Part shown: one piece after another, positions 1,891 through 27,074 of the stretch
Position numbering within the stretch: the stretch's first letter is position 1
How the letters are laid out: every line of letters starts with the position of its first letter
IMG/VR virus record: IMGVR_UViG_3300004807_000071
Span: 1 to 33,011 of that record
Source: a virus
Direction: 5' to 3' (one strand)
Length of the DNA: 33,011 bases
Translations under genes and position numbers: made by a program
The notes under the pieces: generated by a model
Database searches by the model: none
Seen by the model: only the letters and a program-made list of their open reading frames with translations
Told to the model about the DNA's origin: nothing

Positions 1891-2055
1891 TCAGGGTTCG
1901 TCGATTGAATCTCGCAGATCGATCGGCTTGGTTTTCATCGCGTAGAATTGACGCAGCAGCTGGCGCTCACTCTCGGATTTCACGGTCTGCGTATAGTCGG
2001 GCAAGGGTTTCGAGCTTGTCTTGGTTGACTTCGGGTCTTTGGTACCAGGGGGCAT
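1891..2055 (-). CDS. small hypothetical protein overlapping the 3' end of the 1363-aa gene
   Basis: A 54-aa reading frame (begins MPPGTKDPKSTK, ends DLRDSIDEP) starts at an ATG at 2055 with a GGAG seven bases upstream and ends with TGA at 1891-1893. Its first 89 bases overlap the last codons of the 1363-aa gene in another frame. Its end lies ten bases before the 581-aa gene start, so it fills what would otherwise be an 86-base gap. The residues look protein-like: a polar N-terminus, then a short amphipathic helix (SESERQLLRQFYAMK). I do not recognise a family. Tight spacing and a good ribosome site support it as a real small gene of the late operon. Confidence 0.6.
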   Translation of the reverse strand: MPPGTKDPKSTKTSSKPLPDYTQTVKSESERQLLRQFYAMKTKPIDLRDSIDEP

Positions 2056-5000
2056 TACCGCTCTCCGTCACTTTGAAATTGGTGGGGACGACCTTGTTTT
2101 TAGGCTTCTTGATCTCTTCCATGAAGCGTCTGTACGCTGGCACGGTGAACTCCACGAATTCACCGGATGGGAGCTTGTACCTATAATGGGGGATGCCGTC
2201 GTAGTCACGGCCATATTCTGCGCCGTACTCGTAGGCACCGTATTCGCCCTGCTTGGCGCGGATTTCAGCCAGGGGCGCGTTCTTGCGCTGCGCCTTGTTC
2301 AAAATGCCCGTCAGAGTGCCGTGGGAGGCCTCTTGGCCGCTATCTGCCACCCAGGTCTCCCAGTGGTAGCGTCCGACGCTGGCGTCCTCAGGACGGCCCA
2401 CGGCGCCGTAGATGCGTTCCAGTTGTTTTTCGATCCCGCGTTCGATCGCTTCATAAACCAGAATGCCGCGGACACCGGAGGTCAATTTCGCGAGCGAACT
2501 GCCAGTGACAGTGTTTCCGTTATCGTCCGTCCGACCATCGTACAGGTTCCGATCGTTGAAGCGGCCATCGTCCCACAGCTGGCGGATCTGGACGCGGTCC
2601 AAGACCATCACGTCAGGATGACCGGCGACCAGAAGCGTGAAGGACAAAACCTTGTTGTCGATGCCAACGCCCTCGCTGAATTTTGCGAACTCCCGGCGGA
2701 TCTGCTTTCCGGTCATCTTCGGATCGGAGAGCATGTTGTGCAAGCGCTGGAGATGCGTGATGCCGTCGTCGCCCTCCTGGCCCATCTTGTAGAGGAAGTC
2801 TCGGCCAAAGGCCCCCAGATTGTGGATCGCGCCAGCTCCGGGTTGGCCTGACCCCTTGGGGGCTTGTTGTTTGACCCATTCCTCATACGCCGGGAACTGA
2901 TCCTTGGTGAAGTTACCGTCCGCCGCCATGCGGATGAAGCGCTCGATGCCTTCGAAGGAGTCGATGAACAGGCCTTCTTGCGCGTAGGGCGAAACGCCAC
3001 GCGACAGGAACGACCACATCAGAAGCTCGCCCGTGGTTCCGATCGACATTTCGCCGGCTTCGTACTTCTGGCGGAAGAGCTTGGCCTGCTCGAACCCGTG
3101 GTTTGCGTCCTCAATCTGCCCAGGCTTCAGGGTTCTGAGCTTTTCAATGGATCCTTCGCCATTGATATCGCGGATGAACGCGTAGGGCGGGATCGGGACC
3201 TCGCTGGAGCCCAGCGCATCGCCCATCATGTTTTCCCAGGCGTCGGTGCTCTTGGCGGCGTCGGGGTGATCCTCGAGGACCGGCGTGATGTTCTCGAGCT
3301 GCTTCGGTGCGTTGCCGTTTGTGGTCTTTTGGACGAATTTCGCCTTGGTCTTGGGCGGGGGCGGATTGGGGACTTCAACGCGCAGATCGGGCTCGAACCC
3401 GTGCTTGTTGCCGTCCTCGACCGACGCCATCAGGCCTGCAAGTTCACGGTCGCGATCTGACAGGCCTTCTTCGATGGAAGGGGTGCGCGCAGCTTTACCA
3501 GTCCGGATGATCTCGTCCGGAAACACGTCGCGCGTGTCAGCAGTTGTCAGCAAAGGCGTGGTGTGCCGACGCGTGAATTCAGGCATGTGACGCCGTGCTT
3601 CCACGTCTCTGGATTCACGTTCACCGGAGATGTTGCGATACATCTCGTAGCGTATTTGCGCGGCTTCAGGCACGTCCTCGCCGGCCTGAATAGCGTTGCG
3701 CATTTCGTATTTGTCTTTGTTTCGAATGCCGTTCGCGATTGTTTTGTATTTAGTCGCGGCTTGGTTCGCTTGATAACGAGGCATGAAAAACACATCACGC
3801 GGTGTGGTTTTTTTCATCTCAATTGCGTTTTGACGCACAATGAAAGATATTCTTTCCCATTCCTTATTTAAGTCTTCCACAGGCCTTGCTTCATACAAGG
3901 CTTCAAATGCTTTTGACGATGCATTGGCAATTTGTTGGTCCAGGGGCGCTAATTGCGCTAACGGCACACCGGCGCGCAGAGACGCAGCTTTCATGCTGTT
4001 GAGCTTCAGCCATTCGTCCATACGCGGATCTTGCATCAGCTCCTGATAGGCAAGTGCACTAGACTCAGCGTCAGCGGCTTTGTTTTCAAAGGCAGGAATC
4101 AACCGCTTTGAGTACATTTCCAACTGTTCGGGTGTTGCGTAAGAACCCACGGTTTCCGGGTTGCCGCCTGGGTCAAAACCTTCATGCTCTTGGATTCCGT
4201 GTTGGATCTCATGCAATGTTGTGCTGAGCGGATCGTCAGATTTCGGAGTGATCTCAATTCTGTTGGTCGTACGGTCAAAAGACCCGCTGTAATCCGGTGA
4301 TTCAGTGCGACCGATCGTCCACTCTTTGACCTTGTCAGGATAAGCCTGCATTAGGGTCGGATGCGTCAGCATCTGATTGAGCGGGGTCTCTTGCCCCGAT
4401 TGCCAATTGGCGAAATCCTCGTTCAGGCTCGCTGGCACGTCCGACAGCTCGTATCGCGGCATCTGATCGGACGGATTAATGAAGACGCCGGTCTTGTCCC
4501 AAATCTCGCGCGGGCTGTAGCCCTGTGCGAGCATGCGCTGACCTTCTTCCCAGTTCGCAATCAGTTTCTGGTTCTCAGGGAAAAGTTTGCGCGGATCCTC
4601 AGCCTTCAGGTTCTCATAGGCCTTTTGACCAACGAAGATATAGCGGTTGGCCCCGGCGCCATCCGCTGTGCCTGAACCATGGGTGATCTTGCGTTGCGCA
4701 GATCTCAGGATAGCCGCGAGCTCCTTGTCGGACATCTCGAGGTTCATGCCCATCATGCGCCCGAACTGCCGGATCATCGCGGTCAGCTGGGATTTGATCG
4801 ACGCGTCCAGCACGCCTGCCTCGGCCTTGGCGGCGAGCACTTCCTCAACGGCGCGCATCTGTTTGTTGGGGTCGTCTGGGTAGGCCTCGGGATGCGCTCG
4901 GAGCCATTCTTCGGCCTCGCGCTGTACGGTAGGGCTGGACTGGTGGATCCGGCCCAGTGCTTGATCCAGTTGCTCTCCGTACTTGGCGTTCAGGCCAAGG

Positions 5001-6058
5001 TGGCCCAGCGTCTCGTGATAGAGGGCTGAGGTCGCGTTCTCGGGCGATCCGATCTGGTCCGCGATCAGATAGACTTTGCCATCCGGACCCACCAGCGCAC
5101 CCGTCTTGCCAGACATGCCGTCGCGCTTCAGCTGAGCTGCGACCTCCGGCGGGAGGTGCTCTTCAGTGGGGACGACCTGGGCGGTGGTGTTGCTCTTCCA
5201 GTTCTCTGTCAGGCGGTCTACGTGGCTCTGGATGCCATCCATGCCGGAAGGCATCGCACCGGCCTCAGGAGCCCGCTCTGGGGCACCAGAGGGCATTCTA
5301 GGAGCACCGGGCTCCTTCATGCCGCGCATAAGGCCCGCAAGGCCTTTGGCACCCCCTACGAGGGCTTCCTTGCCAACCTCAAAGGCTGGGCCCATGGCGA
5401 AGGCCTCGCCGGTCTGTGTGGGGTCGTATTTGTCACGCGTTCCACCGGCCAGCTGTGCCAGCTGGGTTGCGGTATCGGCGCCAGCGTTAAGGGCACCCAT
5501 CTTGCCACTGCGCGCGGCGAATTCCTTGGCCAATTGAGCTAGGGTCTTCTTGCCGGTGTTAGCGGCGGCTGCGCCCTCGGTCAGGGGCGTGGCGGCGGCA
5601 AACAAAGGATCGCCCAAGCCCAACAGGTTTCCGGCCAAGGTCGCGCCCCCGGCCAAGGTCTTGTCAAACATGCCGCCTGGGGCTGAATAGAAGGGATCCG
5701 ATTGGCTCTGGACCTCATACTCCTCGTTGGAGCGTTTGACCGCGCCTGCCAGATCCGTGCCTAGGTTCCTGCCGTACACATCAGGACCGGAGGCCCTCAA
5801 GCCTTGGATAAGGGCGGCGAGGGCAGCAGCACCCGTGGGGCTGTTCTGGACGGCCTGCTGAGCGTTCTGGCCCAGGCGTTCGCCAAGGGTGCGATGCGGG
5901 CCTGTCGAGGGTCGGAGCGTGGGGGCGGGGCCAGTGGGGGCTGCGAAATTAGAGGCTGCACGCATCTCGTCAGGCGTGAGCTTCGGTTGATCCGGCAAGC
6001 GCGCGCGCAGCGCTGCCAGCGGGCTGAGCATCGATTCGAAGGATTGATCGTCAGCCAT
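1967..6058 (-). CDS. large polyvalent virion protein with two zincin-like motifs
   Basis: 1363 aa. Residues 1-250 are Ala/Gly-rich and helical. Near 346-356 the motif YHETLGHLGL matches the HExxGH signature of phage polyvalent zincin domains. A second motif, LHEIQHGIQ at 615-623, is followed by EGFDPGGNP and later by GERESRDVEARR (812-823) and a T-A-D segment. This is the arrangement of a metallopeptidase-like domain common in large phage polyvalent proteins. Residues about 930-1190 form another conserved phage domain of unknown function, with LLMWSFLSRG, KGSGQPGAGAIHN and GVGIDNKV...AGHPDVMVLDRVQ. Such giant proteins are thought to be packaged and injected with DNA. Whether either zincin site cleaves anything is not shown. 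The middle part (about 3550-4350) is visibly less GC-rich than the rest, as if acquired separately. Confidence 0.75.
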   Translation of the reverse strand: MADDQSFESMLSPLAALRARLPDQPKLTPDEMRAASNFAAPTGPAPTLRPSTGPHRTLGERLGQNAQQAVQNSPTGAAALAALIQGLRASGPDVYGRNLGTDLAGAVKRSNEEYEVQSQSDPFYSAPGGMFDKTLAGGATLAGNLLGLGDPLFAAATPLTEGAAAANTGKKTLAQLAKEFAARSGKMGALNAGADTATQLAQLAGGTRDKYDPTQTGEAFAMGPAFEVGKEALVGGAKGLAGLMRGMKEPGAPRMPSGAPERAPEAGAMPSGMDGIQSHVDRLTENWKSNTTAQVVPTEEHLPPEVAAQLKRDGMSGKTGALVGPDGKVYLIADQIGSPENATSALYHETLGHLGLNAKYGEQLDQALGRIHQSSPTVQREAEEWLRAHPEAYPDDPNKQMRAVEEVLAAKAEAGVLDASIKSQLTAMIRQFGRMMGMNLEMSDKELAAILRSAQRKITHGSGTADGAGANRYIFVGQKAYENLKAEDPRKLFPENQKLIANWEEGQRMLAQGYSPREIWDKTGVFINPSDQMPRYELSDVPASLNEDFANWQSGQETPLNQMLTHPTLMQAYPDKVKEWTIGRTESPDYSGSFDRTTNRIEITPKSDDPLSTTLHEIQHGIQEHEGFDPGGNPETVGSYATPEQLEMYSKRLIPAFENKAADAESSALAYQELMQDPRMDEWLKLNSMKAASLRAGVPLAQLAPLDQQIANASSKAFEALYEARPVEDLNKEWERISFIVRQNAIEMKKTTPRDVFFMPRYQANQAATKYKTIANGIRNKDKYEMRNAIQAGEDVPEAAQIRYEMYRNISGERESRDVEARRHMPEFTRRHTTPLLTTADTRDVFPDEIIRTGKAARTPSIEEGLSDRDRELAGLMASVEDGNKHGFEPDLRVEVPNPPPPKTKAKFVQKTTNGNAPKQLENITPVLEDHPDAAKSTDAWENMMGDALGSSEVPIPPYAFIRDINGEGSIEKLRTLKPGQIEDANHGFEQAKLFRQKYEAGEMSIGTTGELLMWSFLSRGVSPYAQEGLFIDSFEGIERFIRMAADGNFTKDQFPAYEEWVKQQAPKGSGQPGAGAIHNLGAFGRDFLYKMGQEGDDGITHLQRLHNMLSDPKMTGKQIRREFAKFSEGVGIDNKVLSFTLLVAGHPDVMVLDRVQIRQLWDDGRFNDRNLYDGRTDDNGNTVTGSSLAKLTSGVRGILVYEAIERGIEKQLERIYGAVGRPEDASVGRYHWETWVADSGQEASHGTLTGILNKAQRKNAPLAEIRAKQGEYGAYEYGAEYGRDYDGIPHYRYKLPSGEFVEFTVPAYRRFMEEIKKPKNKVVPTNFKVTESGNAPWYQRPEVNQDKLETLARLYADREIRE

Positions 6059-6256: not shown

Positions 6257-6403
6257 TCAGGCGCGGTTGTCGGCGCGCTTGGCGTTGCGCTTCAGGGCGG
6301 ACTTCGCCTTGTGAAGCTTCGCCGGCGTGAACGGGCGCTTGTTGGGATTGTAGGAGCGGACGGGATCGGTCTTGGCTCCGGACGGTCCAGTAACATCAGC
6401 CAT
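6257..6403 (-). CDS. small basic hypothetical protein
   Basis: 48 aa, beginning MADVTGPSGAKTDPVRSYNP and ending in a Lys/Arg/Ala-rich helix (KLHKAKSALKRNAKRADNRA). An AGGAG lies eight bases before the ATG. It is followed 48 bases later by the 46-aa basic protein, so the pair probably shares a transcript leading into the polyvalent gene. I do not recognise a family; the basic tail suggests nucleic-acid contact, which is inference. Confidence 0.65.
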   Translation of the reverse strand: MADVTGPSGAKTDPVRSYNPNKRPFTPAKLHKAKSALKRNAKRADNRA

Positions 6404-6458
6404 GGGTATTTCTCCTAGCTAGGGTGGCGGTGTGCACCGACTGAAAATAGCACTTCCC

Positions 6459-6487
6459 TTGACGGGAGAAAACAACGGGTGTTTTTT
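6459..6487 (+). promoter_or_regulatory. candidate promoter for the structured RNA
   Basis: TTGACG at 6459-6464 is a good sigma-70 -35 element. A 17-base spacer leads to a T-rich hexamer (6482-6487) that matches TATAAT at only three of six positions. A start about seven bases later would fall at 6494-6496, exactly where the first strong helix of the RNA begins. The weak -10 makes this tentative. Confidence 0.35.
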
Positions 6488-6493
6488 AGGAGG

Positions 6494-6941
6494 GCGGGGG
6501 TGAGGAGCTCGGAAGGCTCAACTCACCCCCTGGAACGTTGCCTGGGCGAACAGGGCGTTCCTATGACCACGCTGGGGAGGATGGCCACTGGCTCAAGCAT
6601 AGCCAAGGCCCACCACCAGATCAAGTCATCGCACATTGCTCGCCCCCGGAGCGTGGTCCTTACACTTGGGCGGCGCGCTCCGATCTGGCCGGCTACCGTG
6701 GAACACCCCAAGCCGGCGCGGGTGTCCTGACAGGCGGACCCGTTGGTGAGGAGCGTGAGGCGCTCCGCAATGTTGCCGCTGACCTGTGGCGCGCTCACGC
6801 GACTGCAGGGCCTCGATGCGACAGCCGGCTCCGGTGAGCATGCGCGAGATCGTCAGAGGTATGGGACCACCCCCTGAGAGCGTGCGAATGAGCATGTTTT
6901 CAGGGGAAGTGGTCCTATGCCTCTCGCTCCAACCTCACCAG
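6494..6941 (+). ncRNA. candidate large structured phage RNA, no known family recognised
   Basis: No reading frame here looks protein-like on either strand, but the stretch is packed with inverted repeats. Helices seen: 6496-6508 with 6516-6530 (13 bp, AA bulge); 6532-6537 with 6556-6561 plus inner 6541-6544 with 6551-6554; 6565-6573 with 6650-6658 (9 bp) enclosing 6583-6586 with 6607-6610 and 6589-6593 with 6601-6605; 6730-6737 with 6776-6787; 6750-6755 with 6761-6766; 6793-6798 with 6834-6839; and 6855-6870 with 6909-6924 (16 bp) extended by 6871-6877 with 6900-6906 and 6881-6885 with 6892-6896. In the last hairpin three apposed positions are G-T on the plus strand (they would be A-C on minus), so the RNA is probably read from the plus strand. 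I saw none of the conserved motifs of RNase P RNA, tmRNA or group I introns. Its role is unknown. Confidence 0.6.
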
Positions 6942-6966
6942 TAAGCATAGTGGCTTGATGCAGTGC

Positions 6967-6998
6967 AGAAACGAAAAGAGCAGGCCTTAGCCTGCTCT
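6967..6998 (-). terminator. rho-independent terminator, minus strand
   Basis: A perfect 9-bp stem AGAGCAGGC / GCCTGCTCT (6977-6985 with 6990-6998) with a four-base loop. On the minus strand it is followed by TTTTCGTTTC. It lies about 65 bases after the stop of the 64-aa gene and would end the small minus-strand operon 7626-7062. On the plus strand there is no following T-run. Confidence 0.75.
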
Positions 6999-7735: not shown

Positions 7736-7810
7736 CGTTTTTTGTGATATGCGCGCCAACGCAGATCAGTCCGCCGGAAAGCGGGCCTTGGTTTCATCAA
7801 AAGCGATTTG

Positions 7811-7847
7811 ATCCCGTCGAGCTCCAACTCGGCGGGATTTGCTTTTT
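7811..7847 (+). terminator. rho-independent terminator or attenuator, plus strand
   Basis: Stem ATCCCGTCGAG (7811-7821) with CTCGGCGGGAT (7828-7838), 11 pairs including one U-G, loop of six, followed by TTTGCTTTTT. The tail is T-rich only in the plus direction. No plus-strand protein gene precedes it, so it would stop either read-through from the structured RNA or a leader transcript of the plus-strand operon that begins at 7899. Confidence 0.6.
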
Positions 7848-7861
7848 GTGTTTCCGCCTCG

Positions 7862-7875
7862 AGCATTCCGATATA
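7862..7875 (+). repeat. direct repeat, copy 2 (AGCATTCCG core)
   Basis: AGCATTCCGATATA, matching 12 of 14 bases with 7722-7735. It lies 24 bases before the start of the 90-aa gene; the TATA-containing end could serve as a -10 element, though no convincing -35 is present. Confidence 0.35.
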
Positions 7876-7898
7876 GCTTGAGCGTAGGAGGTGCCCCC

Positions 7899-8171
7899 AT
7901 GGCTGATGAAATAGACGCGAACTGCAAGCACACGTCGATCGAGTATGATGTTGGCGGATTGGCCCAGCCAGGAACGAACGTCATGCTGACCGACATTGCC
8001 GCGCGCTGCGCTGACTGTGGTGTCCTGTTCAAGTGGCTGGGCCGGTGGTCCAATACGCCCAAGCACGGGATCCCGCACGTCTCCGAGGACGGCATCTGGC
8101 TGTCCCTGCCCATGATCCCAGATGGCGAGAACGCGTTCCGCCTGATCCTGAACGAGGATATCCCCCAATGA
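7899..8171 (+). CDS. small zinc-ribbon-like phage protein
   Basis: 90 aa. The start at 7899 is fixed by a strong TAGGAGGTG eight bases upstream. The pattern CKH near residue 10, then ARCADCGVLFKWLG in the middle, then an SEDGIWLSLPMIP tail corresponds to a widespread small phage family: C-x-H, then C-x-x-CG followed by an aromatic-rich strand and an S-x-DG-x-x-x-x-P-x-x-P end. It probably binds one zinc through Cys/His. Function in that family is unknown. It heads a three-gene plus-strand block and overlaps the next gene by ATGA. Confidence 0.6.
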   Translation: MADEIDANCKHTSIEYDVGGLAQPGTNVMLTDIAARCADCGVLFKWLGRWSNTPKHGIPHVSEDGIWLSLPMIPDGENAFRLILNEDIPQ

Positions 8172-8362
8172 CCGATACACCCCCGAAGAGCCGGCGTGGC
8201 TTTGCTGCCATGTCCCGCGAGCAGCTGCTGGAAATCTCGTCCAAGGGCGGAAAGGGAACGCCGCCGGAAAAGCGCACATTCGCGCTGGACAGCACCCTGG
8301 CCAAGGATTCCGCGCGTCTGGGGGGCCTTGCGAAGGCCGCTAAATCGAAGGTTCCGGATTGA
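8168..8362 (+). CDS. KGG-motif (general-stress-protein-like) small protein
   Basis: 64 aa. The start ATG overlaps the previous stop as ATGA. RRGFAAMSREQLLEISSKGG is followed by a second, degenerate GG repeat (DSARLGGLAKAAK). This is the pattern of the KGG stress-protein motif family, also frequent as single small proteins in phages and plasmids. The motif is hydrophilic and low in structure; a molecular role is not established. It is translationally coupled with the zinc-ribbon protein and so probably co-expressed early. Confidence 0.65.
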   Translation: MTDTPPKSRRGFAAMSREQLLEISSKGGKGTPPEKRTFALDSTLAKDSARLGGLAKAAKSKVPD

Positions 8363-8395
8363 TGATCTACGGATCAGGGAGAACCAGAGGCTAGC

Positions 8396-8908
8396 ATGAC
8401 CAGTTATTTGAACCGCCGACAGGCGTCGCAGGACGCTGTTGATAAACGCTATCAGGCCGAATTGGCGCGAAAGTGCACTATTTTCCGCGAATGGGTTGCG
8501 GGCGCAACGTACAGAGAGGCCGGCGAAAAGTTCGGGATTTCTACGAGCCGCGCCGGACAGATCATTCGACAGATTTTGCGCCAGTTGTGGATATTCCACC
8601 GAAAGGGGTTGAATGCTGACACTGCCAGCATGGCCTTGGAAGGCATTTGCGTTGAGTGGGTCGAAGAAACGAACGAAGTTCACTCGCACTGCTCTCTTTC
8701 CCTTTGCGTACCGGGGGGCGTCAAAAGGCGGATTCGGGACTATTGCTACCCTTCGCCCGATGAAGTTGTTACGCTGGGCGAAATGGTCATCATGGCGAAC
8801 AATGCGGAGCCCGATAAAATTGCGAAACATCAGCGCATTCGGAAGCGCATGGGTTTTCCCGGTTTGTGGATGGTGATCCCGGTTGGACTTGAACCAACAA
8901 CCGGCTGA
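8396..8908 (+). CDS. HTH protein, sigma region 4-like
   Basis: 170 aa. Residues about 28-66 (CTIFREWVAGATYREAGEKF then GISTSRAGQIIRQILRQL) form a helix-turn-helix of the sigma-70 region 4 or transposase-helper type, so DNA binding is likely. Residues 70-155 resemble nothing I know. AGAGG precedes the ATG. Codons are more A/T-rich at third positions than in the neighbouring late genes, hinting at different ancestry. The last 12 codons, reading IPVGLEPTTG, are the complement of the tRNA-Lys gene, and the stop falls in its anticodon-arm complement. The native C-terminus may therefore have been replaced when the tRNA and this gene became joined. It could regulate the island or late transcription; that is inference. 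Confidence 0.6.
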   Translation: MTSYLNRRQASQDAVDKRYQAELARKCTIFREWVAGATYREAGEKFGISTSRAGQIIRQILRQLWIFHRKGLNADTASMALEGICVEWVEETNEVHSHCSLSLCVPGGVKRRIRDYCYPSPDEVVTLGEMVIMANNAEPDKIAKHQRIRKRMGFPGLWMVIPVGLEPTTG

Positions 8909-8946
8909 TTAAGAGTCAGCTGCTCGGCCAATTGAGCTACGGGACC
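8871..8946 (-). tRNA. tRNA-Lys (anticodon CUU), CCA encoded
   Basis: 76 bases including the CCA. Acceptor stem GGTCCCG with CGGGATC (one G-U), discriminator A, CCA at 8873-8871. D-arm GCTC/GAGC, anticodon stem GCTGA/TCAGC with loop CTCTTAA (anticodon CTT), T-arm GTTGG TTCAAGT CCAAC. It reads AAG lysine codons, which the GC-rich late genes use heavily. It overlaps the 3' ends of an ORF on each strand, so release of the tRNA from a minus-strand transcript would require cleavage inside the coding sequence of the 80-aa ORF. Confidence 0.95.
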
Positions 8947-26798: not shown

Positions 26799-27074
26799 TT
26801 ACCCCACAATCCAGTTGGTGCCGTTGTAGAGAACGGGGACAAAATTGATCCCCGTTCCGCTCACTGTGGCAAGAAATGTTCCGGTGTTCGAATTGGAACA
26901 ATTGGCTCGAGCGCCTGCGACAGGCGTCAGGGCAATCAATTGCGCATAGGTGTAGACGGGGAGGTTCCAAAAAAATTGGGATGGAACCTCGACCGTGATG
27001 TTCTGTTGAACAAGCGGGACCGCTTCGGTGCCCGTCAGGACCGTTCCGGCAGGAAGCTGTGAAATTTGCGGCAT
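26799..27074 (-). CDS. short tail adaptor, paralogue of the large fibre N-terminus
   Basis: 91 aa. Residues 1-40 (ISQLPAGTVLTGTEAVPLVQ, then QNITVEVPSQFF) align with the first 40 of the 1165-aa fibre (INQLPPGSFLTGSEQVAVVQ, QNNTTVQVPTSYFF). The remainder is a small beta domain (NSNTGTFLATVSGTGINFVP, LYNGTNWIVG) of the sort that ends short fibres. It may occupy a second attachment position or act as an adaptor for another fibre. Separated from the large fibre gene by three bases. Confidence 0.7.
   Translation of the reverse strand: MPQISQLPAGTVLTGTEAVPLVQQNITVEVPSQFFWNLPVYTYAQLIALTPVAGARANCSNSNTGTFLATVSGTGINFVPVLYNGTNWIVG

Follow-up and report, generated by a model that had tools for sequence, protein, structure and literature searches.

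Evidence for a structured non-coding RNA family in a lineage of uncultured phages

The intergenic interval 6459-6941 of the window (the whole 33-kb IMG/VR virus record analyzed here) almost certainly encodes a structured, non-coding RNA of ∼490 bases for which no known family gives a match. The structured RNA family is genuine, being represented by three diverged phage copies, and no description of it was found in open-licence PubMed Central papers. We consider it probable that the interval encodes a stand-alone, trans-acting, non-coding RNA of ∼450–500 nt on the plus strand, consisting of a constant core and of arms that are kept in shape. It corresponds to the loose kind "large structured phage non-coding RNA," being non-coding and having a structure conserved by covariation. 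Few such RNAs are known. For two of them, GOLLD and ROOL, recent work has shown assembly into cages made solely of RNA; another family, apparently with no relation to these, would provide an independent case, in which natural variants could show which parts matter. An RNA gene of this kind would be missed by protein-based phage annotation. As read from the sample identifiers, the source appears to be an uncultured freshwater phage from a bog lake.

The large genes of the window are carried by the minus strand, and several of them code for virion proteins (PHROGs); an endolysin-like gene is also present. Distant relatives of a 589-aa structural protein occur in HMO-2011 and cyanophages, with 31 related IMG/VR loci. 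The RNA interval is flanked on the left by a 48-aa gene starting at 6403 on the minus strand and on the right by small minus-strand genes. Since the RNA is divergent from the former and convergent with the latter, which have a terminator of their own, it overlaps no gene. The hairpin of this terminator also closes the plus-strand unit, without a U tract on that side. Homologues of the RNA were found in IMG/VR in the loci L005 (95% identical) and L004 (86%), along with one contig identical over the stretch, and the RNA is retained in each of the three lineage members known. The 1363-aa protein encoded at 1967-6058 showed 81% identity in L005 and 95% in L004; the lineage is thus mosaic, for L004 is the closer relative of the window by this protein and L005 by the RNA.

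As judged from the comparison of these copies, the secondary structure of the RNA is under selection, since two diverged homologues keep the fold and the arms in L004 have been rebuilt by compensatory changes. Covariation among homologues had been proposed as the test of the structure in an earlier sequence-only reading of this DNA, and the compensatory changes in L004 bear the proposal out. The differences between L004 and the window were gathered in the hairpin arms (63 of 160 columns in 6500-6650), with almost none in the 200-nt core (7 of 200 columns in 6650-6850), and the changed arms refold into the same hairpins. In the terminal hairpin, the structure-blind MAFFT alignment gave 96.7% paired cells, whereas slid versions reached 60.5% at best, with substitutions in both bases of three pairs and in one base of 10; the shuffle control for this hairpin with three sequences was 18/500. 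The corresponding values for the P3-P5 part were 97.9% and at most 41.0%, from an alignment fitted to the model and hence biased in its favor. Among the 195 pairs of the consensus, nine had both bases changed, 14 had one base changed, and eight were broken. When the same 69 substitutions were placed randomly on the columns of a hand alignment, the folding energy was -212 ± 8 kcal/mol compared with -232.1 kcal/mol observed, and none of 60 placements was as good; locally, on the same columns, one of 300 placements was as good for the terminal hairpin and one of 300 for P1-P3. The covariation statistics are thin because there are only three distinct sequences, and the long-range helices are unsupported, several of them being broken in L004. 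The parts of the RNA, whose conserved span is ∼6450-6966 overall, are listed in Table 1.

Table 1. Predicted parts of the RNA and the adjoining terminator (window coordinates).
Feature	Position	Strand	Evidence or remark
Conserved 5' leader, promoter-proximal block	6450..6495	+	Almost no changes among the three phages; L004 diverges over the following 150 nt
Possible small hairpin UCCC-UUGAC-GGGA	6455-6458 with 6464-6467	+	Sole L005 change, T6454C, turns U-G6468 into C-G
Hairpin P1	6496..6530	+	Refolds in L004: U-A to C-G, plus a coordinately inserted A-U pair
Hairpin P2	6532..6561	+	Shape shared by the three copies; L004 has gained a pair by coordinated insertion
Hairpin P3, conserved loop (C/U)AAGCAU	6563..6629	+	Both bases replaced in four pairs, with pairing retained
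Hairpin P4, invariant core begins	6647..6682	+	Fold common to all three save one L005 mismatch
Hairpin P5 (core)	6688..6717	+	Pair probabilities >=0.94 in all three; sequence invariant, hence no covariation signal
Hairpin P6 (core), CGGGuGUCC with GGACCCG	6719..6742	+	Sequence inspection; one loop base lost in L004
Closing helix P7, 5' strand	6744..6751 (partner 6933-6940)	+	Probability 0.96 in L004
Invariant core	6650..6850	+	7 differences in 200 columns relative to L004
Terminal 30-bp hairpin	6855..6924	+	87 of 90 cells paired in structure-blind alignment
Conserved 3' tail: P7 3' strand and second AAGCAUAG	6933..6966	+	Nearly invariant in all three
Terminator of right-hand minus-strand genes	6977..6998	-	Promoter/terminator scan; A-T to G-C covariation at hairpin base in L005

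The helices reported by the sequence-only reading were found at the coordinates it gave, and the terminal hairpin was larger than it had described: 6855/6856-6870 pairs with 6909-6923/6924, followed by 6871-6885 with 6892-6906, and the sole interruption between the two stems is an AA bulge at 6907-6908. In the P3 loop, only the first base varies. In the window copy, there is competition between the 5' strand of P7 and 6833-6838; P6 has a possible alternative long-range partner in 6473-6480. The plus strand of the interval folded with -251.2 kcal/mol (z -6.2), and none of 100 shuffled sequences folded as well. Among 822 windows of 160 nt covering both strands of the whole contig, 6801-6960 (+) had the lowest z-score, -5.97, and 6481-6640 (+) was likewise within the top ten. 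The L004 copy, which is recorded in the reverse orientation, had z-scores of -6.7 on the plus and -5.6 on the minus strand. Such scores alone are weak proof, as values of ∼-8 were also obtained (with few shuffles) for two coding stretches in related phages, and the case for a structured RNA is carried by covariation and not by z-scores. The contig's second lowest score, -5.86, belonged to 26881-27040 (-), which overlaps a 91-aa ORF.

The assignment of the RNA to the plus strand is well supported, though short of proof, and the sequence-only reading was most likely right in this respect. Its argument from the terminal hairpin was that G-T appositions occur on the plus strand and A-C appositions do not; the absence of A-C was confirmed, and the count of three G-T was corrected to five G-U. 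When the consensus was read on the plus strand, 66 G-U cells were observed against five A-C cells, a count that leans towards plus since the structure was derived on that strand; as G-U far outnumber A-C, the plus strand is likely the RNA. The changes in the terminal hairpin also pass through G-U on this strand. The main rival to a plus-strand RNA, to which we give a low probability, is a structured 5' leader of ∼500 nt on the minus strand, which would regulate in cis an operon coding for proteins of 48, 46, 1363, and 581 aa and would be transcribed from a promoter adjoining the 6977 terminator on its left. The stretch does lie between the minus-strand terminator (6998-6977) and the first minus-strand gene (6403), where the operon needs a promoter; the minus strand also beats its shuffles (-217.4 kcal/mol, z -3.0 for the interval), and P3 is more stable on it in two of the three copies. 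However, besides the G-U excess, the minus strand was less stable than the plus strand by 30–34 kcal/mol in all three copies. This difference is accounted for by P4 (-22.5 kcal/mol on plus vs. -14.0 on minus in stability) and the terminal hairpin, with 8–19 kcal/mol lost on the minus reading.

The 5' end of a plus-strand RNA may lie further left than had been proposed. The TTGACG at 6459, which was read earlier as a -35 element placing a start at the first helix, is real but is not followed by a -10 element; the hexamer at that position is TTTTTT, the promoter scan gave no site here, and TTGACG occurs 28 times in the window on both strands. A sigma-70 start at the first helix is therefore unsupported. 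The L005 change T6454C fits a small hairpin containing TTGACG, suggesting that the RNA may begin further left and that this motif may be a part of the RNA instead of a -35 box. The scan recognized neither a promoter nor a U-tract terminator on the plus strand. A promoter motif shared with the plus-strand genes at 7899 (GCACTT...TTTTTT) was rejected as weak, half of it being deleted in L005.

Comparison with the known RNA families was made with the Rfam covariance models, a check that the sequence-only reading had called for. The RNA interval gave no match at the gathering score, in line with an undescribed RNA, and below that score the window copy and L004 gave only chance matches to miRNA, sRNA, and snoRNA families (E up to 5). 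RNase P RNA, group I and II introns, riboswitches, and ribozymes were without a covariance-model match, and neither ARAGORN nor Rfam found a tmRNA or tRNA in the interval; motifs of RNase P RNA, tmRNA, and group I introns had not been seen in the earlier reading either. Since no Rfam family matched, the identities GOLLD, ROOL, tmRNA, RNase P, intron, and pRNA are unsupported. Of the candidates offered earlier, a packaging RNA thus found no supporting evidence, there being no Rfam match for phi29-type pRNA, and the models for GOLLD and ROOL gave none. The bog-lake RNA shares with phi29 pRNA the property of being a phage-encoded structured RNA, but it is about three times longer, and no phi29-like genes were seen in the window.

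It is improbable that the RNA belongs to GOLLD, ROOL, or another known class of large phage RNA and has diverged too far for detection by Rfam. GOLLD and ROOL are phage RNAs whose function is unknown and which assemble into RNA cages (PMC12286853). The phage setting, the broad size class, the high degree of structure, the combination of constant and variable parts known from GOLLD (PMC12286853), and a tRNA gene within 2 kb agree with such a relationship, GOLLD being often found near tRNA genes; like ROOL, it is a large RNA of a phage for which no protein partner is known. Against it stand the absence of a covariance-model match to either family, the length of ∼450–500 nt vs. about 800 nt or more in GOLLD, and the central position of the conserved part, which in GOLLD is the 3' region. 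Nothing in the analysis indicated a pseudoknot or nanocage assembly as in ROOL. The tRNA, a tRNA-Lys at 8871-8946 (-) and the lone tRNA found by ARAGORN/Rfam in the window, is absent together with its adjoining ORF from L004 and L005, which retain the RNA.

An element acting at the DNA level (an origin, recombination, or packaging site with inverted repeats functioning as DNA) would suit an intergenic, inverted-repeat-rich stretch in a mosaic genome, but it is very unlikely given the strand-asymmetric pattern, as DNA hairpins would not favor G-T over A-C on one strand. Least probable is a protein-coding gene with incidental RNA structure: its best candidate, the 99-aa ORF at 6538-6837 (+), is open in L005 with seven of 13 changes at third positions, but the changes amount to four silent and seven replacement codons, the frame is shifted and interrupted in L004, and tblastn found no match. 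None of the ORFs in the interval had a significant family match, and comparison of the copies shows no conserved frame in the stretch. The description of ∼450 bases without a believable ORF therefore holds for 6459-6941 (no family match, frames broken in L004), and the homologues were not found to encode a conserved protein in its place.

For the preferred reading, a stand-alone plus-strand RNA, a tentative mechanism may be outlined. The RNA would be transcribed from the plus strand, opposite to the surrounding virion genes, presumably as a separate transcript. The core (∼6650-6850), being constant in sequence, may be the functional site, and the peripheral P1-P3 and terminal hairpin, which alter their sequence and keep their shape, may be structural spacers or variable contact surfaces. 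By analogy with what is suspected for GOLLD and ROOL, the RNA could act by its shape, as a scaffold, self-assembling particle, or decoy during infection. It is possible, though rather doubtful, that it represents a new large phage RNA class with a constant core and exchangeable, shape-preserving arms, acting in trans either as a particle of RNA alone or as a decoy directed at the host.

The search for further members of the family covered IMG/VR, GTDB genomes, phages, and plasmids, and none was found; the genomes and plasmids yielded nothing except the terminator hairpin. Searches via the neighboring 48-aa and 1363-aa proteins also gave no further member. Four DNA patterns taken from P3, the core, and the tail returned the known copies and chance matches, mostly coding, as assessed from their surroundings and predicted fold. 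On related phage records, a covariance model built from P3-P5 gave no new member, with HMO-2011 lacking a match, and weak matches in L125, L128, and L129 were discarded because a pattern drawn from that very stretch had been used to select these loci. The distant relatives of the phage were without the RNA; apparent structured gaps in two of them (L028 and L035) turned out to be small minus-strand genes. A very strong fold (z ∼-22) on both strands was seen at L026:15567-16016 (29% GC) and probably stems from misassembly or a long inverted repeat.

The motif AAGCAUAG was observed twice in the RNA, at 6595-6602 and 6943-6950, and the complement CUAUGC is present in the 3' strand of the terminal hairpin at ∼6915-6920. 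Both copies and CUAUGC are unchanged in L004, although the opposite strand of the hairpin has changed; a tertiary or intermolecular pairing between them is possible.

To the right of the RNA, a 354-aa ORF at 7766-8830 (-) looks like a shadow of plus-strand genes, and the plus-strand genes of 90 aa (7899-8171) and 64 aa (8168-8362) are conserved with ∼95% DNA identity in L004 and L005. Within 8396-8946, a 170-aa plus-strand ORF weakly resembling sigma/HTH proteins runs into the oppositely oriented tRNA-Lys; as L004 and L005 have neither at this place, the two seem to have been inserted in this phage or lost from the others.
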